Below are positions 16,477 through 63,363 of a stretch of DNA of 64,000 nucleotides, piece by piece. The notes under the pieces were generated by a model. It was not told the DNA's origin and did no database searches. It was given only the letters and a program-made list of their open reading frames with translations. The position numbers and the translations under genes were made by a program. The first letter of the stretch is position 1, and every line of letters begins with the position of its first letter. The stretch comes from Macrocystis pyrifera. Taxonomy: Eukaryota; Sar; Phaeophyceae; Laminariales; Laminariaceae. The DNA lies in assembly GCA_031763025.1 (NCBI GenBank), contig JASSKH010000029.1, positions 5,974,362 to 6,038,361 of the forward strand, given 5' to 3'.

Positions 16477-16605
16477 TTAGTGCTTGTACACGCTCATGGC
16501 GTCGCGACCACCGCAGATATCGTCCATGTTGCCGCCACACTCGTATTCGCAGTCGTGTGATTCTCCGTGGGTCTTGTAATTGGTGTCGGCATCGCCGCAC
16601 CAGCA
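16477..16605 (-). CDS. Exon 16: end of WSC domain 5 and stop
   Basis: Forty-two codons and TAA: CWCGDADTNYKTHGESHDCE, then DDICGGRDAMSVYKH. The protein ends right after the last WSC domain, with no membrane anchor or tail. Confidence 0.9.
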   Translation of the reverse strand, partial: CWCGDADTNYKTHGESHDCEYECGGNMDDICGGRDAMSVYKH

Positions 16606-19600
16606 CTGCCGACGACAACAAAAATGGCGGGGACGCACGGCAGCTTCAGTGACAGCTGTTTGTAGGGCGCATGGCATAGCTCTCGCGTACGTACATTTGT
16701 ATGGAAAGCGTAGAGACGAGAACCGTGACATGGCCCGCATAGCGTCTACCGCGAAGTTTTTATCTGACCCAGCGAAGGCGCGATTGTGAATCGACTCCCC
16801 TTCAGGTCGGCCCTCAACAACCTGGACTTAGCTACCTTCGAACTGAAAACCCGTGAAAGGTGCCGTCGTCGTCGTCATCCCTGCGTCTGGCACATCGCAA
16901 CCTGATGTCAATCATCTAGATCGTCTTTGATCATTCAGCACACGTATCGTACAGATCAAGCTCAGAAAAAGTGCGTCCTTGATCATTCAGATATTTCGAC
17001 TCCCACCTTACTAACATTATGTTGACACAACCAGTTGTCGGGGGCAAACCTTCCCAGAAGTGTAGTTATATATCGTTTTTTTTCCCATGTTCGGGCCATG
17101 GTATCAGATGGGACAGACAACTGGTGCCGTCAACGTTTCGTCGACGCCGCGAAAACACGGCTTACCTCCACTGCAAACCGGGTTCCGTAGTAGGTGTAGC
17201 CGTTGCACTGCGTGTGACAGAGCTATTGGTAAATTCACCGCGAGCAGGCCGACGAAGACAAGCGGAAAAGGGCAAGGAGCGAGTGTCGGGACGTACGAAG
17301 ACAGTCAGTCGATAGTCGTACGTAGGGAACATGTGATGGATACCGTGGAGTTAACCAAGAATAAAGCGGTCTGTGTCAGACGGCAAACTCCTCGGGGGTA
17401 GTGTTCCTGGGAGAGAATTAGCGATCTGCGCGCGGGGGATAAAACTAGCGGTGCTGCTGTGGCAACCGATGCGATGCAAGACTCTTATGACACGAACCAC
17501 ATAAATTATCTCGTCAATAAGCGTGGGTTAATGGATATCGTCGGTAGACACATACATATCAACCTTCCGGCTTCAACCACACCCACGCGTTTGGGAATAG
17601 GCTACGGGAATTTTGCCTAGGACCGTTTTCAACCGTCGGACAGCCTCATTTAAGATCATTCAGAAACAAGAATACAAGCTTGGTCCGCGAATTCGTATGT
17701 GTGAGTTGGTACTGAAGCTACATTCGGGCCACACAGTTCTAATGATTAGCACAATGAAATACACACCGACTACGTGCGGCGTTGCTGCTGGTACAGGGAC
17801 ACAGCAAACTAGTAGTCGTACTGGTACGTTCGGGCATCCAACCATTGCGCACCGTGTGTCGAGCACAAACAACAGAGGAACGGAAACGTGTAATGGTACG
17901 TCAGCACAAACAAACCGATTGCAAGAAGAGTCGCGTGATGTCCGCTGAATAGCGCAACATGCACGTCAAAAGATAGGATGGAAGCCGAACGATAGTGCCT
18001 CACGTCTGTGGTCATGTTGCGGTTGGTTTCCATGTGCCTCATGATGCGTTGATGCTTGGAGTCCGCCCAGCAGCCCAAAGGGGTAGGAGCGGGGTCCACG
18101 ATGGCGTCGGCGTACTCGTACACGCTGATCGCGTTGTACCCGCCGCACCTCACGGATGCGTCTCCGGTGCAATCGTGATCGCAGATGGCATGTTCGTCGC
18201 CGAGCCTGGCGGGGTCGTCGGATTCCACGCTGCAGAAGCACTAAATATAGAGAACAGCGAAAAGGACAGCGGCGCGAAAAAAACAAAATACGAAAGCGAA
18301 CGCTTTATAAACGTTTGAAGCCCGTCCACCCCGAGCGTTTTGAAACGGGAAACAAAGCGAACATGACACGGGAAGATACACTGCCTCTGGTTGGTCTCAT
18401 GGGGAAAACAAGCGCCACGTGACCCGCGTGTCCGGGTTTTATTCTCTTTCGTTCAGGACCCGTCTTGACGAGAAAAAACAACAAAATAAACGAACCGCAG
18501 ACCTAAAGAGCAAGTAAATTTTCCTGATGAAATTAAGCGAAATGGAAACAGAGATCCCGATACCTCCGTTTTCACATTTCGCTTGTAAAGTCCCGTAGGA
18601 CATAAAGTTTACGAAGTAAGTGTCAAGTAAACGAGATACGGGTTACCCAGGGGTGAAAAGGAAAATAGAACTAGCGATAAATTTTCTCCGACCGGGTGGA
18701 AAGCGCACGATGGCCGAGGTAGTGCATGTGGCTGTCACGTGGCTTGTCTGCTGTCCGCACGATCGTGCATAGTTAGGGTATGACCAAGCGGTGCCCTCGC
18801 AAGAAACCGGGGGACAAAAAAATGTTTGTGGTGGTGTATGTTTCGAGATGAGAACCGTTGAACATGCGAACGTCTGCCATTAAACAGCGATGATCGATGC
18901 ACAACTTCTAGAGCGCACCGGAGGGAGCGGGTTGGGCCACGAAAACCTCCAGGTGTGAAGAGTGCTTCGGGTGTGCGAGTTGAGCGCTACGACCGAGAAT
19001 CACGTCTGTGGTGTTTTTAGGCATGCTTAACAGTGGCACTACGTACAAATTCGACTCGGCTTCCTGTTCATGTTCACTTTTTCATTAGAAGCTAACAAGC
19101 TGTTACTTTACGAAAAGGCGAAAAAAATCTGCTTCTGAGTAAACGAAGAAAGCCAGACAACGGAGAAAAATGCAAATAATTGAGACGGAACAAGCAAATA
19201 ATTGAGATGAAATCAAATACCAGGCACCTTGTAAAAGGTAAACATATACATTTTTGTTCTTAGCCGCGAAGTACACCACGGTCACACTGCCCCTCACCCC
19301 CACCCCCCCCACCCTCGACATACCTGTTTTCCGTACTCTGTACCGAAGTAAGCGGATCCGTGGCAGTGGCTGGCGCACATCTGCGAAAGCCCAACACAAA
19401 CCACGGTCAAACAAGTATGGGATGATGTCAGAAAGGAGGAAGTATAAGAAGAAGGAGGAGAAGGTTGATGCACGCAAGTTCTTCATTCGTCAGTCCTTGC
19501 TCTGAACAAATACAATTTATCGTGATGGCATGACGGTCGACGAGCATGTATGATACAATGCTCGCGCAGTATCTACTATTACGGGGAACCATAGTAAATA

Positions 19601-22600
19601 GGACCTGCGGTACAAACAAAAAATTATATATCAGACTATTTTTACAAACCATATTTGTTGCTATTTTCTATGGCCCTCCGAAATAGGAGTAGAACTGGGT
19701 ACGAGTCAATATGATCAGTCGACAGGACACACCTCTGTCGTCATTCCTCTGTCCTCGAACATCGTTCTGGTGAGCACGCGGTCGTCCCTGTCGTCTGCGT
19801 AACAACCAACGCCGGTGTAGCCGCGGGAGGTTTCTTCGCCGTAGGGTGGCATGGTTGTGGGCGATACGGTAGGAGGCGGGGTAGGAGGGTCGGTTTTGTG
19901 GACATACGTGTAGACGCTGTTCGCGTAAAAGCCACCGCACATCTCGTTCTCGCCTTCGTCGTCTCTGCCGGTGACGTCGCCTTCTTGTTTGGCGCACGGT
20001 GTGTCGCAGTGGCCGTCGCCGTGCCGCTCGGGTTGGTCACTATCCGCGCTGTAGTAGCACTGATAGGGTATGACAAAGAAATGACCAGAATCAAATTTTG
20101 GAAACGTGTGAGATCACGAGTTTCACACACATATACAACGAACCACTAAGGCGCGGGGACTAATGGTCTCGTGTGGAATCTAATGTGATCTCAAATGAGG
20201 TGAAAAACGATAATTCGATTGTTTGTTCAGATGCATATTAATATAGTTTGTAAGGATAGGACGACATGAATAGACTCTCTCGCAGAGTCGTAAGGTTAGT
20301 TTGTTTTTTTTTCAAATCGAGTTGTTGATCATATATTGCTGCTCTCGAAAGGCGGTAAGGTATTAAAACAACGGGTAGAACGCAGAAGACTATGCTGTGT
20401 CGGAGACGCACGCGCATTCCGGCTCACGACCCAAACCAGCACGACAAATCAAGCTTACTCCTCGTTATCGCTCTTGAAAACGACTGCAATATCGTACCAT
20501 CGATCACAACGGCAAACGATGTGCTTACCTCTTCTCCCCACTGGGTTGCGAAGTAAGTAGACCCTTCGCACCTGACCGAGCATATCTGACGCGCGAGAAA
20601 GCAATGCAACCCCAAAGACGACGGCATATCGCATGGGTTTGGGATAGAAGATGAACTGTAGATCAGTGCCACCAGAGAGATTGTGGTGCCTTACTCTCTG
20701 AGATCAACCACAAGGTACTCAATCGATGGGTCACAACATGACGTCCATGGAGTTTAGTCGGACAGAAACCAGACCAACAACACCATGCCCTAGTCTTGAA
20801 CCAAAATAGCTAGTGTGACCAACGGGTCGTGCATGACTAAGCGCATTGCCGTCTGCGCGGTGTGTGAATTTGGCGGGTTTTGTATTGTTCGACACAACGG
20901 TAACGTTCCAAAGGAGAGCGTCACAGGCCTAAAGTGGGCGTTCTAGCTCAATTATGTGGAGCTAATCATGAGTGATTCGGAACGGACGTCTTCGGAACAA
21001 CTGTACAGAAGCCTTCCGATGCAGGAACTGATTCAGATTTTATGGTCTCTTGAGAAACACCCCCATGATTGATGTGTTCGATATTTTCCTTCTCTTCAGT
21101 ATCTGGTACAAATAGCGTGTACCAGTGCACGAAGATTGCCGGTAAATCGACTGACATGCTGGGAAGGCGGACGGGGAAACACAGAGGAGCAACGTATCGT
21201 TCACGAACTCCTTGTGACACCACGTATAGTGTCATCTCCGACAGCATTTACTTACGTTGATCACTGTTTGACGATACTCTCGCACCATGTCTGTAGGTAT
21301 ATGACGTATCAACAGTCCACTCTGTAGCGAACGTTTTCGCAGGGTCACTGGATATTCAGTTAGTGATCGTTTTCAGGTTCACACGTTTTATTCTTCCAGC
21401 ACCGTGTCCTGGTCTAAGCAAGTCCCACCCTGCGGGTATATTGAAGCATATCCCGATCCCGTCAGTGTATGTATATAGCCCCTACCACACGTACCGCGGC
21501 CGACATAACGTCTTGATGTGTCAGATAATCCCCGGAGAAGGTTCGGTTGGGGTCGGCCATATCCTTGTAGCATCCTACAAAGTCGTAGTCGATGGGAGGC
21601 ATCTCGTCGTAGGGCGACATGGTTGTGGGCGACGTGGTAGGGGACGTAGGAGATTGGGTGTTGTCGTCGTAGTCGTATAGGCTGATGGCGTCATAGCCTC
21701 CGCACGTCCGCTCGTTGTCTCCGCCACATCGGAAGTGGCACGTGGCGTTTCCCTTCCTCATGGGGTAGTCTGTGTCGTATCCGCAGAAACACTTTTTGGG
21801 CAGGGATGAACGGCGGAGGAGCAGTTGCAAGGAGCCACGTCGGTGAAGTAGACTATCGTGGTAAAAACACACATGGCATTCAACGAATTTTGTCTATGAA
21901 CACAAAAACCGGACACTTTGTTCAAAGCGATACCTGTATACCTGGTGGATTGAACAACTTTCTCTTGCCGGCGAAACCACCGCTGTCAACCAGCCCCCCC
22001 CATCCTCTCCCACAATTGGACCCCACAAAAACATACATGTCGTGTGAACTCTGTACCGAAGTAGGCGAATCCATCGCAGAGGCTGGCGCACATCTGTCAA
22101 ATCCATGTACAAACGACGTTCAGCGATGTATGGGATATTGTCAGAAGCGAAAACGGCACAAAAGAACACAGAGAAGGCTGATGCATACAGGTTTCTAATC
22201 ACTCAGTCCACGCTCTCAACAAAAATAATCCTGCGATGGCCTGATTATGAAGGGATATGTGTCGTACGACCCTCGTGCAGTACCAACTTAGAGTAAATTC
22301 GGTACTAGTCAATATGACTAGTCGACAGGACACACCTCTGTCGTCATTTCTCTGTCCTCGAACATCGTTCCGGTGAGCACGCGATCGTCGCTGTCGTCTG
22401 CGTAACAACCAACGCTGGTGTAGCCGGGGGTGGTGTCTTCGCCGTAGGGTGGCATGGTTGTGGGCGATACGGTAGGAGGCGGGGTAGGAGGGTTGGTTTT
22501 GTGGACGTATGTGTAGACGCTGTTCGCGTAAAAGCCACCGCACATCTCGTTCTCGCCTTCGCCGTCTCTGCCGGTGATGTCGTCTTCTTGTTTGGCGCAC

Positions 22601-25600
22601 GGTGTGTCGCAGTGGCCGTCGCCGTGCAGTTCGGGTTGGTCGCCATCCGCGCTGCAGTAGCACTGAAAGGATATGATCAAGAAAAGTGCAGAATCGAATA
22701 TGTGTGCTGGGTGTGGGATCTCGGCAGTCATATGCAGGAGCAAACCACTCAGGCGGGGGCTAATGGTTTCGTGTGGAATCTGATGTGATCTCCAATGGAG
22801 TGAAACAATATGATCGAGTAGTTAGTCGAGAAGTACATCAACATGATTTTTAAAATATTTCATTAGATGACATGCACGGACTCGCTCACAGAGCCTCAAC
22901 GTGTTCCGCATTGCCTGTGTAGGCCAGCCGAAGACCGATCTATGAAGTCAACTGAGTCGGGATGTTCTCTTGGTTGCCTTTTTTTGTTGGGCTCCTTCTC
23001 TAGTATTCCTCCTTCACTTTATCTCTAATGGTTCGCAAACGTGTGGCAACTATGCACATTTCAGTACGTAGTGGTCTAATCGTTTCTATCATAATCGGGC
23101 AATTGCTTTGCGTTCGTACGACGTGTCCGCAATAAGGCATTTGCTTCGAGTAGGCATTGTATGTCGTTGCTTTAGACTTACGGGATTGATCTTGGCGATG
23201 CCTTGGTTCTAAATTGCCCCACGAATATTCGGTTTTGTGAATGTCGAAGCGCTACAGTACATACTCCCGACAACATCGATGATAGATATTACGCCCGCTG
23301 GTGCGAAAATCTATTCATGCACGAGTGTAGCGTACGATTGCCCGCACGTACTATCGATACAATTTTTTTGTGAATGACAAGAAATTCATCATGATTAGAC
23401 ATAAACTTTTGTCAAGCATGAAGATATCTGATCTTGAACAAATTTTTTAGCTATGTGGATTGTAGTACTGTACACTACACGGTTGACCCAAAATAGTAAC
23501 GGTTGTTTGCGTCAAGACACTAAAATTCCTTTAAAAGGTAAATAAACTGTAGGTTACAGTGTGCCATACTAACCGCCATAAAAACCAAACTATCAACGAC
23601 CGTAAGCACAACCAACTTACCGCCATAACCCGATAATACGTAATAGTCAACAGAGCACTTTTGACCTTGTGGATTCACATCAATGCGCACTAGAGTATTC
23701 GAACAGCCGTTAGAATGTGGATGACTATGCTGTGTCCGAGATGCGTGCGCATCCTGGCTGACGTTCAAAACCAGCGCGCGACCAAGCTTGACCTTCATAA
23801 TGTTGACCGCTCTTGAAAGCGACCGTAATAATCTGTCATCGATTACAACGCGAAACGATGTGCTTACCTCTACTCCCCACTGGGTTCCGAAGTAAGTAGA
23901 CCCTTCGCACCTGACCGAGCATATCTGATGCGCGAGAAAAGAGCGAAACCACAAAAACGACGGTCTTTCAATCGGGCTTAGGAATAAATATGAACTGTAG
24001 ATCCGTCCTCACACGAAGAGCTCAGTATTCATCCCACAACATGACGTCGAAAGGGTTTATTCGGAAGGAAACCCGACCAACAATATAATGCTCTGGTCCT
24101 CAACCTAAAATGGATCGTATATTATACGGGTCGTGCATGGCGAACTGCTGTATGTGCAATCTGTGATCTTGGCGCGTGTTCTATTATTTAACACAACGAA
24201 GACATTCATGCAAAGAGCTGTACAGGCCGCACCCACGCGTTCTTACTCATTTGGTTAGCGCAACACAGGCGTGGTTGGGGACGGATTGCTTGGGAATAGC
24301 AGTACGCAAAGCATTCCGGCGTAGGAAATGATTCAAATGTTGTGGCTTCCTGTGAAACGTTCAACTGATTGACATGTGTTTTAATATCCTGTTCCTCATG
24401 CTCTGATACAAGTACTAAGTGCCTGTAAATGTGTTCAAGATCGTCGGAATCTGAACGGACATACTGGAGAGGTGGGCAGGGAAATATGGCGGGGCAACGC
24501 ACACTGCAATACCTTCCTGTGATACCGTGTTTAGTATTCCCTCCGACAGTATTTACTTACATTGATCACTGTTTGACGATACCCTCGCACCATGTCTTTA
24601 GGTAGTTCAGGCGCAAATAGACCACTACGTCGCGAACGTCAACGCAGGGAGAGGCTCATTGGATTAGCAGTTCGTACACGTTTCCAGATTCACAACCTCG
24701 TCTTCTTCCAGCACCGCTGCCTGGTCTGAACAACTATCACCCTGCGGTTTAATTGAACAAAACCCCAATCTCGCCCGTGGCTGCCCACAGCTCCTACAGC
24801 ACGTACCGCCGCCGACATAATATGCTGATGTAAGAGGTAATCCCCGGACAGAGTTCGGTTGGGGGAGGCCACGTCCTTGTAGCACCCTACAAAGTCGTAG
24901 TCGACGCGCGGCATCTCGTCGTATGGCGAAATGGTCGTGGGCGACGGGGTAGTGGACGGCGTAGGGGACGGTGTAGGGGGCACGGACACGGGGGGGTGGA
25001 CCGGCATGCCTCTGTAGGCCGCGACAGTGCCCTGCAAACAGCCGAGGGTTACAGTATCGGAAAGAACAACAGGATAACCAATCTTTAGCGGGTGTGTCTG
25101 TCAGCTTCCGAGAGACGAGTGGGCACGTTTCGTCGGCATTGCCCAAAGGTGAGAGACAGGCGGGGGTGAGAGGCGGGGGGTACTGAATGTTGTTGATGGG
25201 TGCTGTCGTCGACCATATATCCGCGTATGCCTTCACTGCCGGAATAGAGGGCGGCGTGGTTTTACCGACAATGAAAACGTTGAGTGATTGATTAGGGGGG
25301 AGGGATTGGGAGTTGAACTCAACAATTTGCCTGTTTCCTGCGTGATTATGTTTGTTTAGGATTGGATAAGATTCTGTGTCCATCTTCGGTTGATAAACCG
25401 GAGGTATCAGCGATACCTTTCAGGTTCAGAGTCTCTTCGAGGGGTATCCAGCGAAACGATTCGATTCTCCGTAAGCGTACTACCCCCTGTGCAATAATCC
25501 GGCGACTTGTAAACTATATCCTTCGCTCAATGATCCGAGAAAAGTTCAAATGTTTATTGGGAGTTACCTTGGATTGTTATATCTGATGCTGGCTGATCGG

Positions 25601-28249
25601 CCGGCAATAAACTGCGTAGGTGGAGAATCGAGTTATCGAGCTGCGTACCTCTGCAAGCACGTTGACCAATTTCGAAAAGGACACGGCCAACTTAGTGGCT
25701 TCGCGGGTGTAATACGACTGTGATTGACTGAAAAATACAAATCGAATCGCGAACAAATATATCGCAGACGAAGAAGCATAGGGGAGTTCGGGGGGGGACG
25801 AGGCAGGCGGGTGTGTAATTATGTAATACGTGACCGTTGTCGTATGACCAAACTCCCTGCCGATCCAGCAATTCAGGGACCAAGCGCGTTGTCTTTTGAC
25901 GACATTATTTCACCAAGCGCGAAGCTCCGTGCAATGTTTAATGAGTTTCATGTGAGGTTGATCCATATATGAAACTCTGGCGAAGTGGACTTTCTTGGAT
26001 ATGGATTGTGGTGTCGTCGAGTCGATCGATGACTACTTCATGATATTTGTTCTTGTTTAGTGGTATCTTTCACATATTTGAAGTCCAGGAGTCGTACATC
26101 TGCATGATCTAGAACAACACGTTCTATGTTGGACACGCACTGTGCATGTTGATCCTGCAGAACATCTTGTGACAGCAGGTTGGAAATTTCTTTGTCTAGA
26201 TCGTGATCGGTCAGAAGACACGGGAAACGTTTAAACGCATTTGGTCTTGCGTTTGTACTCCCTAGTTCTCACCATGTTCTCCTTGATGGTGCGAGCGTTG
26301 TCTTCAGTCTCGGTACCCGTTGACCTTTCTTGGTAGATCACGTTCGGGTTCGAAAAGTAGTTGGCGTAGGGAGACCGGGGGAGGCCAGACGCGCAGTCGT
26401 AGCTCATGATCGTCCGGTACCTGAACTGCAAACGGCCGCCGCACGGCCCAAGCCATCAGACAAATACCGCCAGAACCTAGCGTGATCTGAGGCAACCTTT
26501 CAGAATGAACCCTTACCCTTCTTTGTCAGAGAAATACAATTGGAATTTGAGTCAACCCTATTTTTTCGATAGTAAGAAAATGGTTTCACGATGCTCGCGG
26601 CTTAAGACCTGTCCGGTACCCTACCAAAACAAATGTCGCGGGCTCAGTCCGTCTAACGGCGACAAACGATAAAACAAATGACCACAGGACAGCGCTAGCC
26701 AAATGAGACCGCACGTTATGGAACCACGTTGTGTCTTCTTCGCCTTCTTGGTATTTGTTTCACGACCTACAGCCTAAACGCTGTGCAGCAGCAGTGCGTA
26801 TTGTGAACATGAACAGTGCCCGTAGAATGTCTAATGTTATACGCATCGCTCTCGTATATATCACCAAGTAAACGTCACACGTACAACTTGTATGTATCGT
26901 TCTCGTATATAGCACCATAAGGTTTATTTTCGTACATGCGGAATTAAAAAACGCTGCAACAACATAGTGTGGCGTATTGTCCCCGCCACTCTTTAGGGCC
27001 GGTCCGAAAAATAAAAACGAAATATAGAAACGAAGAGCAGAACTAAAGAGCACGTGAGTTTTATTGGTCAAATCAAAGAAAAATAGAAGTAGAGATCCCG
27101 ATATATCCACTTTTAAGTCGCAGAGGACTTAATCAAAACGAAATAAGCGCCCAAATAAACGAGATATAGGTTGCCCAGGGTCGAAGTGGAACATAAGAGG
27201 GGCTCTAAGCATTGGGATTAAGTCCCGATAACGTTTCTTCGACTGGTTGGCAAGCGCATGATGGACTAGGTAGTGCATGTGGCTGCCACACGGCTTGTCT
27301 ATTGACGGCGCGAGTTTATATGGGTAGGGAAACATTAAGGGGTGCCCCCGCAATAGAAGGGGGGATCCGGAAGAGGCTGTAGCTGTATATGTTTCGACAT
27401 GAGTTCCTCTGAACATTCAAACGTCTGACATCAAACAGCGATGTCAAACAGCGATGGCCGACACACAAGTTCTAGAGCACTCTTGGAGGGAGCGTGTTGC
27501 GAACCGTCTGATGTACAGGGTGCTTCTCGTGAGCGAGTTGTGTCTATCCACCGTCGCTGTCGAGCGCTATCGCCGGGAATCACGTGCTGCGGCGGTTGAG
27601 CCATTCTTAACAACCGCACAAATTCGACTCCGATTCTCCGTTTTATTTCATTTTTTTTTGTTTGTTTTTCATTTTCGTCCTCGTTGGGACCGGCCCTCGG
27701 GGGTGAGATAGTGGCCAGAACTCATTTTCGTCGGATTTTCACATATGAAGAACTTAACAGAACAACAGAGTGTTTGCGATAGAGGTAAAAAAAAAAAAAA
27801 TTACTTCCGCTAAAATAAGTGAATTTCCTTCCCTTCCTGATTTCGGTGTGTTTGCGAGTGAGGTAAACCAAATCCTGCGGGCGACGCCTCCGAAAATAAG
27901 AAGGGAAGTGGGGAGGTGAGGCAACGCGGCAAACAAACAAAAAAAGAAGAACGGAAAAAAACAGTGATAGCCCAGCAACGGTTCGGCGGCAGGGTTGACC
28001 GCGAAGCCATCATTGCCATCCCACGACTACAAGCCGCAGCACAGCAAGCAGCAGCTAGCTGGCGATAGCTGCAGCTAGGGGCAGCTTGGGCAACAAAAAT
28101 AAACAGCGTCAGCACCAGCACCAGCACCAACCAGCTTCCGTTTTGGGATTGCTGTTGCTGCTGCTGCTGCTGCTGTTGCTGCCCTCGGCCTACGCACGCC
28201 ACAGCGCCGGCGCGCTCCGCTCCGCCGCCGCCGCCGCCGCCACCGCCGC

Positions 28250-28302
<53 letters not shown>

Positions 28303-31300
28303 ATGTTGCTGCTGCAGCCGCAGTATGGTGAAATCAAAATAATACACGAGCTGTCATGCTGTCGCGCTCTGTACGAGTACGAGTACGAGTACGAGTGAGT
28401 ACGGGTCCATTTTTGGGACGACGCATCCTCCACATCGTCACCAAGCGGGCGAAAGCGTGTACCGTAGCAGCGGCGGCGGCCCGCTGGCACAGTCCGACGC
28501 CGCTGGTGCGCGCTATACACAAGCTACACATCTCGAGCCTCTGTGCTCCCAGCGGTTGTCGTGATGCGTACAGCAAGCAGCATGGTGTCATGGAAGATGC
28601 TCGGTGTTTTGATCCTTCGAGATTTGAGTTGCGTTCTGCATCGGGATAATGCTCGGTGCGTGTAGGCCAATGAAACAGAGAGCCAAAAGTTACCGTAACT
28701 TTCGCTGAAATCCTTACTTCGCTAAAGTACTTTTCGGCCGATTTCTCAGAAATTTACCTCACAAATTTACCTAGGGAGAATTTTTAGAGAAGTAAAAGTA
28801 AAAAAAAAAAATCGCAAACACTCCGACATTGACTTTCACACGGGGTGTAAATCACTTTTGTCTGCCACCACGTTGCTGAGGTGATGAAGATCAAACAGCA
28901 GGCAAAGTGGTACCAAAATGTGCAGTCTAACCGGTACGTTGAGGATATTGATATTTTCCGTTAAGGGTCAGTATCTCCGAAGGCAAACCTCAACGGCCTT
29001 GTGTTAATGAAAAGGACTGCACTGTTTATTCATCATTCTTGTGCACAGGACGGTTTACCAAAATGCGTTGAAACGGCCTCATTTGCGAAGAGGCATATTT
29101 TTTGTTCAAAAATACAAACGACGGCCTTACATTAAAAATATGTTACTCTTTCACTGCTTCACCATAACCAATCAATACACTCACGGGTTATCGCCGTCGC
29201 AGTAGCGGAGACCATGCGAGTACTTGGAGTCGGAGGAGGTGTTCTCCCTGTTGTGGCCGCATCCCAAATTGTGGCCGAACTCGTGGGTATGGATGTAGTT
29301 GCTGAGGCATGTCGGCTTCACCAGCGAGTAGGCGTACGCCTCGCTGTGGAAGGTGTATCTGTGTGGAGACATAGAAGAATGGGACCGGGTGGAACGAGGT
29401 AGAAGGAAATATAGTTTGGGTTTCACGTACTATCATCGACAAGCTGCCGCTATTCCCGCAATTAAACTAAGGGCCATTCCTAACAAAGAAAACAAATCAC
29501 GATTCGTGAGATTTTTGTCCTGAATCACGACATGAAAGCTCACGATTCATGGCGCCATTTTTGATTAGCTTTTCCCTAAAAATCCGAAAATCACGACTCG
29601 TGACATTTGTGGTGTCTCGAACTACGCCTGATCAAGACACTACGCAACCCACACGCACCAACGGTATCCGAAGGTCCGTGTAGGGGCATGGCAGACTGTA
29701 CTTCGTTCGCCGCTTGTGGACAACCGGCGGCTACCAAAGGCACCACTGCGCGCGGGCTCACGAGGAGGTCGTGGTCTGGATATGTCGATGAGGAGGAGCC
29801 ACGGCTCGAAGACAAACGCGAAAATGGCCCGAGAATATCACTGGCCAGGCGGGGCGGACGCCCTGGGATATAGAATCTCTCGAACCGGGCTTGGCCGACG
29901 GTCGGTGAAATTGGTATCTCGCAGGCTGGTTCAGGCTTGGGCCCGTGATTCGAATATATCACGGGCTGGGCTAGGTGCGGCCGGCCCGGCACGGCCTGGC
30001 CGTGCCTCACTCGCGAGAGTTGGCTCCACTCCCAAAACTGGGTTTGAAATATCGTATTTTTTACAACTTGAAAATATCACGAAACGTGACGTTTTCAGGC
30101 TTTTTTCGCCAGAACTGAAACGTCGTGATCTTTCGGCATGATAAAAAAGAACGAATGGTGATTTTTGGTTCGGTTCGTTAGGAATGGCCCTAAGTGTCAC
30201 ACACCGGATAACCTGCAATACCCCCCCCCCCCCCCTTTTAAGCTGGGGTTCTTCGTAACGGGGAAAGTCCAAAAGCCATACGACGTGCCTATCGAAAGGT
30301 CTCTACAGCATATTTCAATGGCCACCCACCTTCGTTTTTAGCAATCGCCTTGGATTGGCACATACGATTCGACAACGAGGGTGATTGATATTTCGTGTTG
30401 TACGGTACTGCTGTACGTGGTTCTTGATGTCGTCCTCATCACCCTAGTTTCCCTACCTCGTAGTCAGCGGATAGAGGCACATGATATTGAGGGATAAGGC
30501 ACTCCGCATCCCAAGGTGTGACATGGAGCGAGTACATTCCGCCGCCAAAAGACATGCTCGAAACCCTCTAGAAGGGGGGGACGAACATATAATTGGAGGA
30601 ACCTCCGCCAAACCTATACGCAAACTCGTCGCGGCGGACACATATCATCGAATTCCTCTTCCTGATATTGATCTTCAATAAAGAAAGATCTATGATAGGC
30701 ATGACCTAGCTCATGCTCCTGGGGGGGAGCCTTGAACTCTGCATTTCTGATGACACGTCCCCAGATCCTGCGTTGCAACTCACAACGGTGGGTTGGTATT
30801 GCATAATCATTTATAGTATATACCAGGTACCACGGTACTGCGACCAAGTTTAGCCCCGCGGCGGTGAGGCCATTGCGCTCACCCCCATCCGCAGTAGCCG
30901 TCGTCGAAGTCACTAATGACTTGGACCAGGTCGGCCTCGTTGTCGTCCCGAATGGCCATGATTTCCGCGCTCGTGCGGACTTGTTTCAGGGTCTCCACGC
31001 CGCTGGGGTTGCCCTCTACATAAGGGGCCTGGATGGAGCGACATATTCAAAGTGGTCATCGATCTTTGCCATTTTCAGTTTATCAAAGCTGGCCATTGTA
31101 CGAATTTCAGCCAAACACGAATACCTATGAAAATTCGCTTCAGCAGCTCGGCGATTTCGTGTGACACACACCCTTTCGCGCTGCAGTTAGGAAACTCTGC
31201 ACCCTGATGCGGTGTCCTGGCTTCCCTTGTCCGAGGGCCCAGCACCTTATTGAAGTCACAATATGCAGCACTCGCGTTACATCAGCTATAGACTACCAGT

Positions 31301-32985
31301 ATGTACCTATCATCACTTTCATAATAAACGAGCAAGACAAAAGCTAAATCATATGTCGGATAGATTAAAGGACAGCTGCGGTTGTGTTCGGGTCGCTGTC
31401 GTTGAAACCGATATTGCCCGAAAACGAGATTCCCTGAACAAGAATAGCTTCGCGAGGGTTCCTGATACTTTGATCGTTTTCGAATATGCTGATTGAGCAC
31501 ACACCCCTACTCCCATTGCTGTCTTCTGGGAGTGGCAACACCGGAACATAAACAGGCAAGTGGACCTGCCATCTATTGGCAAGTCCGCCTCGTAAGAAGC
31601 TGTCAGTAGGATGCAGCTCACCCTTCATGCGACTCGCCGAACACCTCACGGCGCTCCGCGATTGACGGAAGTTAATTCTTGTTGGTCGGCAACAACCCGA
31701 CGTTATCCGTCTCGGCATTGTAGGGATGCGAGGTGCTACAGTCATACAACTATTGCCATGCAGAATATCGAGTGCCTGCTCACCACGCCCACGCCCCCCC
31801 CCGCTGAGTCTCTTGCCCTGCCCTAAGCTTTTGTTCGAGAACAAGAAGATCAGCCCAAGAACAGCCTAACGACTTTATCGAATACATGATGGCCCCTATT
31901 GTCGAACGCCTCTTTCGAGTTTGACCTGTGCTAGCACCATCGGTCATGGCGTTGTTTGTAGGGGCCTGTATGGCGTGTAAAGAGAGAAGCAACATCTCAC
32001 CAAGCCGATATGGACGGGGTTGAGTTTGACGGCCACCTCGGAGTTGGCGAACGCCTGGTTGGTCCCGATGAAGCTCTCGCCCAGGACGGTCATCATATAA
32101 CCGTCCGTTTTTCCGCCCAGAACGTGCATGGATTTTTTGGTGTACAGAACCATGACATCGATCTGTCGTCGTTAAAGCCCGGGTAGCGGGGTTGGGCGCG
32201 GACCGACAAGGAGGGGTGCGGGGCAGGGTGGAAACGGGGGAAGATGACGGGAACGAGATCCTTTATTAGAGTGTTTGTGACCAAGTGTCTTCAGAAATTT
32301 ACTTTCCTTCCGCTACACAAACTGAATTCCGTCCCCATAATGACTTGGGTGTGTTGGTGGACGAGGTGAACAAGTACTGCAGGCGACGCCACCGAAATCG
32401 TGGGGATGTGCGGAAACGCATAAAAAACGAAAGATAGAAAAACAGCGTGCAGCTAGCAACGGCAGATCAGCAACGGTGTCTCACACCAGTGGCGATTTGC
32501 TCTTCTTTATCATACGCCTAGCCCGCTCACATCACATATCACCCACTATTGTGTGAACACGGTGACCCTATAGTGGGTCGGACCCTTCAACGAGCGAACC
32601 TTGTTCATCGTTGATGATGCACTCGTTTGTTTTGTGGAATGATGTCTGTCGAGGACTCGGGCTCTCGCCGCTTCAAACTACACTTGCGTCTGGGTTTTAC
32701 TGAAGATGATATTTGCCCAACGTTTGCCCAATAATTATTTGTTTAACCCTAATGTAGAAGGTCTTAGTCAAGACACGACGTTGTTGATCTTACCTCATGG
32801 TACTGCTATACCAAGTATATTGACCACAACGCAAAGCTTGGGCCTACTTCCGACGGACATACCCATACACTCACCACAGTGTAATCCGAGTCGTAGTCGG
32901 CCTCCTGCATCCGGCGAGCGGTCGGCTCCTCTGCCGCGTCGGTACTGCTCCACGCAAACGAGGCATAAGTGTACAAGGGATGAGT
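16477..32985 (-). CDS. Spliced gene: M12B-like zinc metalloprotease with five WSC domains (5' end not found)
   Basis: Sixteen GT-AG exons join in one frame to 855 codons and a TAA stop: 32985-32875, 32162-32001, 31028-30883, 29358-29185, 26420-26273, 25031-24807, 23924-23868, 22662-22336, 22093-22037, 21791-21495, 20585-20529, 20059-19733, 19380-19324, 18240-18004, 17222-17166, 16605-16477. Exons 2-5 form a reprolysin-like catalytic domain with zinc site HEFGHNLGCGH (residues about 165-175) and Met-turn IMSY (Met about 203). Pro/Thr-rich linkers and five WSC domains (carbohydrate-binding, Cys-rich) follow. The product is probably secreted or wall-facing and cleaves proteins while bound to polysaccharide; substrate unknown. 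The signal peptide and most of the prodomain must lie in exons upstream of 32985 that could not be identified. Seeing the reading frame kept across all 15 junctions makes the model strong. Expression is not shown. Confidence 0.85.
17166..17222 (-). CDS. Exon 15: 57-nt mini-exon of WSC domain 5
   Basis: Nineteen codons, phase 0: LCHTQCNGYTYYGTRFAVE. Acceptor AATAG, donor GTAAGC. Found by searching for the pattern of the other four mini-exons. Confidence 0.85.
18004..18240 (-). CDS. Exon 14: end of WSC domain 4 and start of WSC domain 5
   Basis: 79 codons, phase 0. CFCSVESDDP through VRCGGYNAISVYEY ends domain 4. Domain 5 opens PLGCWADSKHQRIMRH after a very short linker. Donor GTGAGG. Confidence 0.9.
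18430..19100 (+). repeat. Dispersed repeat of about 700 bp, copy 1
   Basis: It matches 26995-27680 and 33140-34075 in the same orientation. Shared landmarks are GATCCCGATA, TAGTGCATGTGGCTG, GGCTTGTCT, CAGCGATG, TTCTAGAGC, GGGAATCACG-type and ACAAATTCGACTC. It lies in the intron between exons 13 and 14. No coding capacity is recognised. Confidence 0.75.
19324..19380 (-). CDS. Exon 13: 57-nt mini-exon of WSC domain 4
   Basis: Nineteen codons, phase 0: MCASHCHGSAYFGTEYGKQ. Acceptor CGCAG, donor GTATGT. Confidence 0.9.
19579..19683. mobile_element. Palindromic MITE, copy 4 (intronic)
   Basis: It starts TTACGGGGAACCATAGTAAA and ends CTATGGCCCTCCG. It sits in the intron between exons 12 and 13. 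The duplicated intron between exons 8 and 9 lacks it and is shorter by about the element length. Confidence 0.85.
19733..20059 (-). CDS. Exon 12: end of WSC domain 3, linker, start of WSC domain 4
   Basis: 109 codons, the same length as exon 8. It starts CYYSADSDQP where exon 8 has CYCS, so one conserved Cys is Tyr. It ends with VGCYADDRDDRVLTRTMFED and the GTGTGT donor. Confidence 0.9.
20529..20585 (-). CDS. Exon 11: 57-nt mini-exon of WSC domain 3
   Basis: Nineteen codons, phase 0: ICSVRCEGSTYFATQWGEE, differing from exon 7 at two residues. Donor GTAAGC. Confidence 0.9.
21495..21791 (-). CDS. Exon 10: end of WSC domain 2, linker, start of WSC domain 3
   Basis: 99 codons, phase 0. CFCGYDTDYP and ERTCGGYDAISLYDY close domain 2. 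A short SPTSPTTSPTTMSP linker precedes VGCYKDMADPNRTFSGDY. Donor GTACGT, as in exon 6. Confidence 0.9.
22037..22093 (-). CDS. Exon 9: 57-nt mini-exon of WSC domain 2
   Basis: Nineteen codons, phase 0: MCASLCDGFAYFGTEFTRH. Acceptor GACAG, donor GTATGT. Confidence 0.9.
22336..22662 (-). CDS. Exon 8: end of WSC domain 1, linker, start of WSC domain 2
   Basis: 109 codons, phase 0 at both ends. It starts CYCSADGDQP, has ENEMCGGFYANSVYTYV closing domain 1, a PTPPPTVSPTTMPP linker, and VGCYADDSDDRVLTG opening domain 2. Donor GTGTGT. Confidence 0.9.
23868..23924 (-). CDS. Exon 7: 57-nt mini-exon of WSC domain 1
   Basis: Nineteen codons, phase 0: ICSVRCEGSTYFGTQWGVE. Acceptor CATCAG, donor GTAAGC. 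It supplies the central Cys pair and the aromatic TYFG core. Confidence 0.9.
24807..25031 (-). CDS. Exon 6: Pro/Thr linker and first part of WSC domain 1
   Basis: 75 codons, phase 0 at both ends. GTVAAYRG ends the protease part, a linker of PTPSPTPSTTPSPTT type follows, and VGCYKDVASPNRTLSGDY opens WSC domain 1. Donor GTACGT. Confidence 0.9.
26273..26420 (-). CDS. Exon 5: Met-turn
   Basis: 148 nt after a TTCAG acceptor. It encodes YRTIMSYDC (Met codon 26407-26405), then ANYFSNPNVIYQERSTGTET and EDNARTIKENM before the GTGAGA donor. The YFSNP and GTETEDNAR blocks are the usual end of this catalytic domain. Confidence 0.9.
26995..27680 (+). repeat. Dispersed repeat of about 700 bp, copy 2
   Basis: Same family as 18430-19100, in the intron between exons 4 and 5. 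It contains AGAGATCCCGATATATCCA, TAGTGCATGTGGCTGCCACA and GAATCACGTGCTGCGGCGG. It ends at ACAAATTCGACTCCG followed by a T-rich stretch. Confidence 0.75.
28150..28318. repeat. CTG/GCC trinucleotide tracts in an intron
   Basis: A CTG/TTG run near 28150-28180, a GCC/CCG run near 28224-28250 and 17 uninterrupted CTG units at 28252-28302. All lie in the intron between exons 4 and 5, so the poly-Leu, poly-Ala and poly-Gln reading frames here are not protein. Confidence 0.95.
28366..28396. repeat. (GTACGA)n hexanucleotide repeat
   Basis: About four tandem units of GTACGA followed by a variant unit. Intronic. Confidence 0.85.
29185..29358 (-). CDS. Exon 4: zinc-binding active site
   Basis: 174 nt, phase 2 in and phase 2 out. 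It contains HEFGHNLGCGH at 29285-29253: three His zinc ligands and the catalytic Glu in HExxHxxGxxH form. Flanks AYAYSLVKPTCLSNYIHT and HGLRYCDGDNP are typical of the family. Donor GTGAGT. Confidence 0.95.
29471..30190. mobile_element. 720-bp TIR element with TAA target duplication
   Basis: It begins GGGCCATTCCTAAC and ends with the exact inverse GTTAGGAATGGCCC. TAA flanks both ends (29468-29470 and 30191-30193). A 3-bp TWA target and a short GGG-starting TIR fit the PIF/Harbinger group. There is no transposase, so it is non-autonomous. It lies in the intron between exons 3 and 4. Confidence 0.8.
30883..31028 (-). CDS. Exon 3: catalytic domain middle
   Basis: 146 nt, phase 0 in and phase 2 out (donor GTGAGC). 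It encodes APYVEGNPSGVETLKQV through MAIRDDNEADLVQVIS and ends DDGYCGW. The split glycine codon is completed by exon 4. Confidence 0.85.
31610..31770. repeat. Dispersed repeat, pairs with 61185-61330
   Basis: Both carry CTTCATGCGACTCGCC, AACACCTCACGGCGCT, GGTCGG, ACCCGACG and ATTGTAGGGA in the same order and orientation. This copy is in the intron between exons 2 and 3. Confidence 0.7.
32001..32162 (-). CDS. Exon 2: start of the catalytic domain
   Basis: 54 codons, acceptor GACAG, donor GTGAGA. It encodes IDVMVLYTKK, then GGKTDGYMMTVLGESFIGTN and QAFANSEVAVKLNPVHIGL, the conserved first strand and helix of M12B-like proteases. Confidence 0.85.
32875..32985 (-). CDS. Exon 1 of the visible gene (probable prodomain end)
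   Basis: Thirty-seven codons ending ADYDSDYTV before a GTGAGT donor. Joined in phase 0 to exon 2 it gives DSDYTV-IDVMVLYT, the usual prodomain-to-catalytic transition of reprolysin-like proteases. The acceptor (GCAAG) is weak, so the start is tentative. Confidence 0.5.
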
Positions 32986-60548: not shown

Positions 60549-63363
60549 ATGAAGATAAAGACCACGAACATCGTTTTCCTGGCCGCTTCCCTAGTCGGTG
60601 GAGTGTCCTGCCAGAGGCTCCTGCAAGGTGTCCTGCAGGCGGGCCTCGACGTTACGGCTCCTGTTGCGTCTGCCGATCCTGCTCAGGTCCTAGATGGTAC
60701 AGGCGTTGAGGAACAGCTCGTGAAGTCGCTCCAGGCGGACCCGCAAGTTGCCGGTAAGACGAATCGCTTCAGTATCGATCATGTCATATCCACTGGGTAA
60801 AACAGTAGCGCTGTGCCTAATGCTGTGCCGTACAACGGGAATGGAAATTACCGGCGTGCTCAGTCCGCCTACGATAATCAGTTGGAACAATGCGTGCGTG
60901 CTTTTGCGTATGAATCAGAGATCGGTCCTCCGTCAGATACGCAATCATTGTTGCGGCCCACGCCGTCGTTGGCGAGATCGAAACCATCTTCAGAAACATC
61001 GAGGCTGTAGTTTTGTTCTGCTGCAACATTGTATAGTATTACTATACTTCAATGCTCGCCTGCACCTTGTTCCTTGGCTTGTGGAGAGCCATCGGGCATT
61101 GCTCGCGGAGACCTCTAACGCCACAGGCACGTTTGATTCGTACAGACCCCCCCCCCCCCGCGCCTCACACCCGTGAACTGGCGCGCCTTCATGCGACTCG
61201 CCCAACACCTCACGGCGCTTTGCGCTGGGTGCAAGCAATGTCTAGCTGGTCGGTGATAACCCGACGCGCTCCGTCCCACCATTGTAGGGACGCGAGGGTT
61301 TATAGTCATATGACTACGGCCATGCATGATAATGCGTACCCCCCCCCCCTGCCTCACACCCGTGAACTAGCGCCGCCTGTCGTAGGGGAACGTTTGAGTG
61401 GCTACTGTAGGATGACTACCTTCACAAGACCACATAACCATAAAACCTACAAGTACGTGCTGCAGAAACGACCTCGTATCACCCCTGCTACCCACAATTT
61501 GTTGGTGCGGCAGTCGTGGGATCAGTGGACCTGGGAGAGGTGATCTGCGACTCCCTGGTGGCAGCTGAGGATGCCCCCGCCCTGTCTTTCGTCGTCCACG
61601 AGGAAACCCTTGTTGCCGAGCGTTCATCCTACACATTCACCCCCGGAAGCATCTTCGAAGACGATGCTGATCGCCATGTAAGTCATAAGGAGGGGTGATG
61701 CCTGCGAGAGGCGGGCGTATTCTTATAGATAAGGTTACTTCCTCAGCCAGCTAGGCAGTCGGCGTGCGCGGTTAATTTCCTACAACGGATAGGTGGGCGC
61801 GCTCTACAAGCCGTGTGGCGGACGAACGGGGCTGTTGGAGATACTGTAGCTGTGAGCGGTACAGTGCAACAGCACGGTCGAGTGCAGCTGTTGTTTTACT
61901 CCAAGATGTCAGAAAAAATAATATTAGAGCCTTGACAACGCGAGCACAGCAGCACTGTGTTGGGCACGTTAAGATTGGTTTTGCGAGCCATCAAATGATT
62001 TCCACCTTATTACCCAGCGCGCATTGGAACGACAAATATGGTTAGTATAGCGCGCTGTACGCTGAACGCGTGTCGATGACGCGTGCCGCGACAGGGGTAG
62101 CATGGTTCGGGCAGAAACCGTCTAACCCATGGGTTTCCTCAACAATTTGGAGACTCTTAGACTGCGACCAATATGATAATATATGAAGTGCTATCAAACG
62201 TCTACGAAGAGGGTTAACAGGGGAAATCCCACGATAACTGGTCGAGAGCCACCTTGCGTAGGCGTTTTCTATTATATTCGTTGTGAGTATACACTGCCAC
62301 CGGGTTCCACATTCTGGCTTCACGAAGGCAGTGTACATGCGAAGCTCAGAGGTCCTCAAGCGAGAGGCCCCACAAATAAGTAGGTAACACTTAGTACGGC
62401 TAAGAGTTTGTAGCACCTTCTAGAGTTTCTGAGACCACAAAAACTGATGTGTTTAATAAGAACCCAGAGACGACTTTTGAGAGGATGTATAAGATTTCCC
62501 CGATTAACAGTCCCATGCCCTCGGTAAGGGTGGTGGCTTAAAATTGTGCAAGGATAATAGGCCCACGGTAGAGGCGGCGGCATATTGTTTGAGCTAGTCC
62601 CCAATCGTCTTACCCGAAACCTTGACTTCGCCACCGAGGCGTTCTGCTATAGAGGTTCACGCTAAATGTTCTGAGGCTCCTCACTTGACCTTAAGGAGGT
62701 CCATACCTCACCCGAAAACTGACTTGAGCAAAAATCAAATTGCATCCCGATGAATAACCCCATGGCCCAAGAACACCCAAACGGGATTATTGACCTTCCG
62801 ACGATTGTGGGTTAAGGAACATCGTCATTCAGAAAACAATTTGGCGGAAATATACTACCTCTATCGTAGAACGCGTCCACCCGACCAACGGTTTGGTGCG
62901 CTAGTCTTAAAACAAGCGTAGTAGTGCTAGTATCCTAGTAACCGATGTACTACTCGTCGCTCACTTGACGAACTCAACTGGTCAGAAAACGTTCGAGCCA
63001 AAAAGTGCAAACCGCTACCTTGGGATGAGTCGCAACACATATGGGGTACTGGGTGGTTCCTCATCGTGGGAGCCCAGGCAGTATGAACTATTGACTGGTC
63101 CGCAAACGTACTACCTCCATATCCTAGAACGCGCTGGATACAGGCTGTCCCAATCGAATTGATTTTTTTATCGCGGGAAGAGAGCGGTGGTCGGCCAATG
63201 GCACGCCTATTCACACCCTCCTGCCTTTCAGACAATGACGCATGCATGATGAAACTGTTGTTTACCAGGTTTGGGCGGGAGTCGTAACCAGCCCTGTTGA
63301 AACCGAAGACGAAGCCGCTCCTCGGACGGTCAGCATGACGTGGGACGACGCTGCAACGTCGAA
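60549..63363 (+). CDS. Probable second gene: N-terminal exons of a secreted protein (3' part outside window)
   Basis: Exon 1 (60549-60753) starts in a GAAGCATGAAG context with a clear signal peptide, MKIKTTNIVFLAASLVGG then VSCQ, a likely cleavage after the small residues. It ends in phase 1 at a GTAAGA donor. Exon 2 (61514-61677) starts in the matching phase after CGGCAG and encodes VVGSVDLGEVICDSLVAAED, then YTFTPGSIFEDDADRH, before GTAAGT. Exon 3 (63269-63363) continues in phase 0 with VWAGVVTSPVETEDE and ends at GTAAGT. Matching phases at both junctions support the model. A fourth exon may start at 63901 but could not be confirmed. The sequence is not a recognised family. A signal peptide followed by a short acidic N-terminal region could be the prodomain of another metalloprotease like the one at 16-33 kb, but that is speculation. 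Confidence 0.55.
61185..61330. repeat. Dispersed repeat, pairs with 31610-31770
   Basis: Same-orientation match to 31610-31770, inside the first intron of the second gene. Poly-C runs flank it at 61147-61159 and 61340-61350. Confidence 0.7.
62640..63150 (-). repeat. Further copies of the GTGCTACGATAG module
   Basis: CTACCTCTATCGTAGAACGC at about 62859 and CTACCTCCATATCCTAGAACGC at about 63111 are inverted relative to 49380-51770. GCGTTCTGCTATAGAGGTT at about 62640 is in plus orientation. All lie in the second intron of the probable second gene. Confidence 0.55.

Follow-up and report, generated by a model that had tools for sequence, protein, structure and literature searches.

The ADAM, ADAMTS and snake venom reprolysin metalloproteases (M12B) have in common with the protein described here (gene A) the HExxHxxGxxH zinc site and the Met-turn, and with the model of its relative P0001 the predicted metzincin fold; ADAM and ADAMTS differ from gene A in their disintegrin, thrombospondin type 1 and Cys-rich domains, none of which was matched in the joined gene A protein (Pfam, E up to 0.1). 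We know of no WSC domain in CpaA of Acinetobacter, which is bacterial, unlike the algal enzymes. Both the profile search (E 8.4e-9) and the fold comparison placed CpaA (PDB 6o38) first for the catalytic domain, and it is described as cutting at O-glycosylation sites with Pro before them (PMC7542363). That WSC domains bind glycans, as a first, sequence-only reading of this locus had stated, agrees with the account of Serendipita (Piriformospora) indica WSC3, a lectin of three WSC domains with affinity for long beta-1,3-glucan (PMC7816849), and in the same fungus a metallopeptidase is joined to a carbohydrate-binding module in LysM-M36 (PMC3192844). As described in these sources, both systems differ from the present one in being fungal, WSC3 consisting of three WSC domains and the fusion being built of LysM and M36. 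WSC is likewise appended to another domain in brown-algal PR-1 proteins (PMC12879055), the source describing a CAP domain in place of a protease. Brown-algal prodomain-M12 proteins without WSC (P0133-P0139, P0006, P0008, P0009, P0013 and P0014) resemble gene A and its relatives in the prodomain motifs, the R-x-L-Q border and the catalytic domain, and have other Cys-rich tails or none, with no WSC in their Pfam lists.

The nearest proteins are two gene models labelled Undpi1, which we take to be the kelp Undaria pinnatifida, and both have the domain order of gene A. P0001 (Undpi1/4357, 781 aa) was the best database match to gene A (E 2.5e-160, 39% identity over 73%) and shares its clade; it differs in having three WSC domains, a signal-like start, most of a prodomain (one prodomain exon seems to have been omitted from the model) and a zinc site changed to HWYGHNLGCRD, and its M12 domain is missed by Pfam. 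P0025 (Undpi1/12651), with one WSC, lies outside the clade of gene A and is the sole protein with both M12 and WSC Pfam entries among the 100 matches listed. The search for this architecture among brown-algal proteins, which the sequence-only reading had proposed, was thus positive, and its suggestion that the arrangement would be new if uncatalogued was not borne out, since these two proteins and at least six loci of the present genome have the same arrangement. The M12-WSC architecture is already in deposited kelp gene models and WSC-enzyme fusions are a known kind, and no paper describing an M12-WSC protein was recognised among the matches listed in the open-licence literature.

The window, i.e. 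the whole stretch of 64,000 nucleotides analysed, corresponds to contig positions 5974362-6038361 within the 537-Mb Macrocystis pyrifera genome of 223 contigs. A compact splice-aware program that had been trained with peptides of the window found most exons of gene A, and reading of the junctions by eye completed the model. Sixteen minus-strand exons were joined into a single open frame of 855 residues ending at a stop codon (Table 1); all 15 introns are GT-AG, 13 of the 15 junctions are in phase 0 and the other two in phase 2, and internal stops are absent, so that rebuilding from the DNA recovered the sixteen exons, 15 splice junctions and one frame originally proposed, with the same limits (32985 to 16477). 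The first automatic model also contained a 9-nt exon, a poly-Ser exon (28311-28198) and one at 18747-18709, all three of which were dismissed as spurious. A chance joining of the exons was ruled out by the repetition of their order, with equal or near-equal lengths, in the neighbouring genes D, B and C. Gene A is a real, well-read gene.

Table 1. Features of the M12-WSC locus (window positions unless the contig is indicated).
Feature	Position	Strand	Basis or remark
Gene A exon 1: prodomain tail, RRMQ motif 32916-32905	32875..32985	-	homologous acceptor probably 32944
Exon 2: M12 domain start (IDVMVLYT)	32001..32162	-	joined frame and paralogue comparison
Exon 3: M12 domain	30883..31028	-	joined frame and paralogue comparison
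Exon 4: M12 domain, zinc site HEFGHNLGCGH 29285-29253	29185..29358	-	
Exon 5: Met-turn IMSY 26410-26399	26273..26420	-	
Exon 6: M12 end, Pro/Thr linker, WSC1 first part	24807..25031	-	
Exon 7: WSC1 central exon, 57 nt	23868..23924	-	
Exon 8: WSC1 end, linker, WSC2 first part	22336..22662	-	
Exon 9: WSC2 central exon, 57 nt	22037..22093	-	
Exon 10: WSC2 end, linker, WSC3 first part	21495..21791	-	
Exon 11: WSC3 central exon, 57 nt	20529..20585	-	
Exon 12: WSC3 end (one conserved Cys to Tyr), linker, WSC4 first part	19733..20059	-	
Exon 13: WSC4 central exon, 57 nt	19324..19380	-	
Exon 14: WSC4 end, linker, WSC5 first part	18004..18240	-	
Exon 15: WSC5 central exon, 57 nt	17166..17222	-	
Exon 16: WSC5 end, stop codon	16477..16605	-	
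Two-WSC block, copy 1	22031..24958 (ends approximate)	-	DNA self-comparison and WSC tree
Two-WSC block, copy 2	19318..21646 (ends approximate)	-	DNA self-comparison and WSC tree
Gene B first exons (signal-like stretch, prodomain), gene running past the window	60555..63349	+	profile and paralogue peptides
Gene D	about 5951290-5968058 (contig)	+	home-made splice finder
Gene B	about 6033996-6057555 (contig)	+	home-made splice finder
Gene C	about 6073502-6099434 (contig), end within L026	+	home-made splice finder

Scanning of the joined gene A protein with the Pfam models (hmmscan; M12B reprolysin-like models PF13688, PF13582 and PF13583) gave Reprolysin_5 at 39.5 bits (cut-off 27), Reprolysin_3 at 27.0 (22.4) and Reprolysin_4 at 23.7 (22), and WSC (PF01822) at 201 bits over five stretches, each single WSC scoring 36-59 bits against a cut-off of 27.8. 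The M12B-like protease with five WSC modules first read from the letters was therefore found with all domains above cut-off, and the intact zinc site and Met-turn of that reading were both confirmed, the HExxHxxGxxH pattern being satisfied. Conserved cysteines number eight in each of WSC1, WSC2, WSC4 and WSC5 and seven in WSC3. A metzincin fold was predicted for the catalytic domain of the related P0001 in a structure model with pLDDT under 50 across the WSC part; the model of P0133 was of low confidence over much of its catalytic domain (mean pLDDT 60).

Examination of nine 10-kb pieces of the adjoining contig revealed that gene A lies in a tandem array with D, B and C, which share one plan, prodomain - M12 - three WSC, in models where some exons, the first ones above all, are wrong or uncertain. 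The central WSC exons are 57 nt long in all five cases in A and in all three in both B and C; in D this holds for three of three in the unguided model, one being lengthened in the guided model. The three histidines and the glutamate of the zinc site are kept in A, C and D, and B reads RFFGFSLGG there. A conserved R-x-[LM]-Q motif stands directly before the catalytic domain and is less strictly kept in B, where the stretch is GGRLQ. Elsewhere in the genome M12 exons followed by WSC exons were found at the loci L023 and L025, so that M12 precedes WSC in six of the 11 WSC places whose flanks were examined (A, B, C, D and L019-L025); the genome holds at least 46 WSC matches, most of them outside these 11 places.

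The tree of 28 catalytic domains (18 algal rows and ten outside proteins, presumably bacterial) placed A, B, C, D and P0001 in a single clade (support 97/93) and separated the algal rows from the outside proteins at 99/97, with P0025 falling outside the remaining algal rows (97/91 for the rest). Among the 14 other brown-algal proteins, 11 named as such by their source and three (P0134, P0135 and P0139) assigned by likeness, the zinc site retains its three histidines and its glutamate in 12 and is changed in P0001 and P0008. In the poorly resolved tree of 77 WSC domains, from which L025 was left out, the WSC of P0025 clustered with L023 and L024 (100/100, long branch) apart from those of A-D. 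L025 is linked to P0025 by tblastn, and the exon layout of the WSC in the P0025-like loci differs from that in A-D. Judged from these comparisons, P0025 and the loci L023 and L025 look like a separate M12-WSC fusion, two fusions being the simpler reading. The second homologue search, which omitted known brown-algal proteins, samples incompletely and no absence was drawn from it.

The five WSC domains of gene A include a duplicated block of two, the repeat being seen in the DNA at a spacing of 2.6-3.3 kb. In the same 77-domain tree the first WSC of A pairs with the third (100/97) and the second with the fourth (100/95), and WSC5 groups with the third WSC of B, C, D and P0001 (94/84). Three WSC would be the older state, from which gene A probably reached five through duplication of the two-WSC block. 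Exons 7 and 11 are 96.5% and exons 8 and 12 94.2% identical, against about 70% for most of the flanking intron, an exception being the 37 bases past exon 8, which reach 89%. Since synonymous sites are equally conserved, selection on the protein alone is insufficient to account for this contrast, behind which exon-wise gene conversion is possible.

Whereas D, B and C lie on the plus strand, gene A is inverted and lies on the minus strand. The brown-algal profile detected three prodomain exons (18-61 bits) in each of these three genes and, for gene A, nothing over 7 bits on either strand near the gene; among matches above that score there were thus no prodomain exons of gene A that an inversion breakpoint could have left nearby. 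Paralogue peptides compared with positions 32951-64000 revealed no recognisable signal or prodomain exons of gene A in these 31 kb upstream, in a single assembly whose window contains no N: on the minus strand the best match reached 21 bits in the wrong order, and the plus-strand matches were the exons of gene B, including its signal-like start (27 bits). Repeats at 35.0-35.4 kb, considered as a surviving 5' flank, have several copies elsewhere and were read as a dispersed repeat.

Exon 1 probably starts at about 32944 (counted by hand) rather than at 32985, because the exon of gene D has an acceptor there in the same phase. Alignment with this prodomain-ending exon of D, matching in acceptor and phase, implies an upstream coding exon that has been lost. 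Within the part of exon 1 that is homologous, the first in-frame ATG lies at 32910, inside the R-R-M-Q motif, so that translation of the assembled exons on their own would give a product without signal that begins at the mature protease. As no exons for a signal or a prodomain turned up in the upstream assembly, gene A is most likely an inverted copy that is truncated at its 5' end and no longer a normal secreted zymogen, although a first exon that has diverged or was newly acquired could have escaped detection. Of the secreted protease originally proposed, the M12B-like domain fused to WSC stands and the claim of secretion is weakened for this copy. The absence concerns whether gene A works, not the family of its catalytic domain.

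We favour, with a probability of about 0.62, a family of wall-docked secreted proteases, with gene A as a five-WSC copy that is truncated at the 5' end and perhaps decaying. That gene A is instead a fully functional five-WSC wall protease, served by a divergent or distant first exon or by a new promoter and start, is possible but doubtful. Its 16 exons are free of stops and frameshifts, of the 37 M12 columns that hardly vary it keeps 35 (against 34 in D, 32 in C and 28 in B), and when stretches of the window are ranked by coding likeness, nine of the top 11 are its exons and the other two microsatellites, in a ranking that is partly circular because A, C and D served to train the codon model. 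Against it weigh the prodomain exons, plain in D, B and C and not found over 31 kb upstream here, the missing cysteine of WSC3, and the comparison of exons 7-9 with 11-13, where dN (0.076, 24.5 changes) equals dS (0.077, 7.5 changes); dN/dS between the two blocks was 0.61 (231 aligned codons). In neutral simulations at the intron distance of 0.355, 23 of 5000 runs were free of stops and none was free of both stops and frameshifts, a result not counted as proof of constraint since the true clock may be the exon distance of 0.077. A recent loss of constraint fits best, long-standing decay being disfavoured by the intact catalytic residues, and gene A is probably the least typical member of its family.

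Two readings bear on the family as a whole. It is unlikely that its members mainly bind, as pseudoproteases or decoys with catalysis secondary: the altered zinc sites of gene B and P0001 point in this direction, but A, C and D, like 12 of the 14 other brown-algal proteins, keep the zinc residues. Far less probable is the merging of two adjoining genes, a protease and a WSC lectin, by our joining of exons. Five of the 11 WSC places lack an M12 match in the flanks examined (none over 12 bits for L019-L022; none over 9 bits for L024, with 7.7 kb upstream covered), but exon 6 alone runs in an open frame from the M12 end through the linker into the first part of WSC1, the Undaria gene models link the domains, and the order M12 then WSC is found again in D, B, C, L023 and L025.

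In the favoured reading of wall-docked proteases, the protein of intact members would enter the secretory pathway with its zinc site held shut by the prodomain, and would be cut at the conserved R-x-[LM]-Q just ahead of the catalytic domain. The three Cys-rich WSC domains may, by analogy, hold wall glucan through several weak contacts, and the enzyme would then cut nearby wall or surface proteins, perhaps O-glycosylated ones. More tentatively, kelps may have fused prodomain-M12 to glucan-binding WSC twice and amplified one fusion in tandem, with live and zinc-dead copies, for in-place trimming of O-glycosylated wall proteins; such enzymes could be a brown-algal counterpart of matrix-anchored ADAMTS with unrelated anchors.

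To the first reading of this locus the present analysis adds that gene A sits inverted in a tandem array and has an internal duplication, and that its signal and prodomain exons are missing. Tissue-level multicellularity and a glycan matrix arose independently in brown algae, and to our knowledge little is known about the proteases that remodel this matrix. A protease family with probable sugar-binding tails, unlike the animal ones, offers a testable handle on matrix remodelling, and gene A offers an example of a tail that grew exon by exon, probably from three modules to five, in an array where dead and live copies adjoin.

Analysis of the duplicated exons of gene A revealed that exons 7 and 11, and likewise exons 8 and 12, were 94-97% alike, while the introns beside these pairs were mostly about 70% alike. 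The high likeness was confined to the exons, synonymous sites included, and exon-wise gene conversion is perhaps behind it. A long triplet microsatellite within intron 4 was mistaken for a poly-Ser exon by automatic joining.

Features located in the window (loci L010-L011 lie beyond it)
Feature	Position	Strand
Gene A exons 7 / 11	23868-23924 / 20529-20585	-
Gene A exons 8 / 12	22336-22662 / 19733-20059	-
Intron 4 microsatellite	28188-28325	
Dispersed short repeat	37452-37564	
Gene B, prodomain + three WSC	60555-63349 and L010-L011	+

The dispersed short repeat had >20 matches among the fetched loci.

Since the zinc-binding motif is gone from gene B, a paralogue in the same array as gene A, it is a likely pseudoprotease. 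M12-WSC genes of a second type were identified at L023 (contig C202) and L025 (contig C221); both resembled the Undaria gene model P0025, and their WSC domains were distributed over the exons otherwise than in the first type.

The motif R-x-[LM]-Q was found at the junction preceding the catalytic domain in 14/14 M12 proteins examined (P0001, P0006, P0008, P0009, P0013, P0014, P0025 and P0133-P0139; 11/14 named brown algal) and is likely a processing site.
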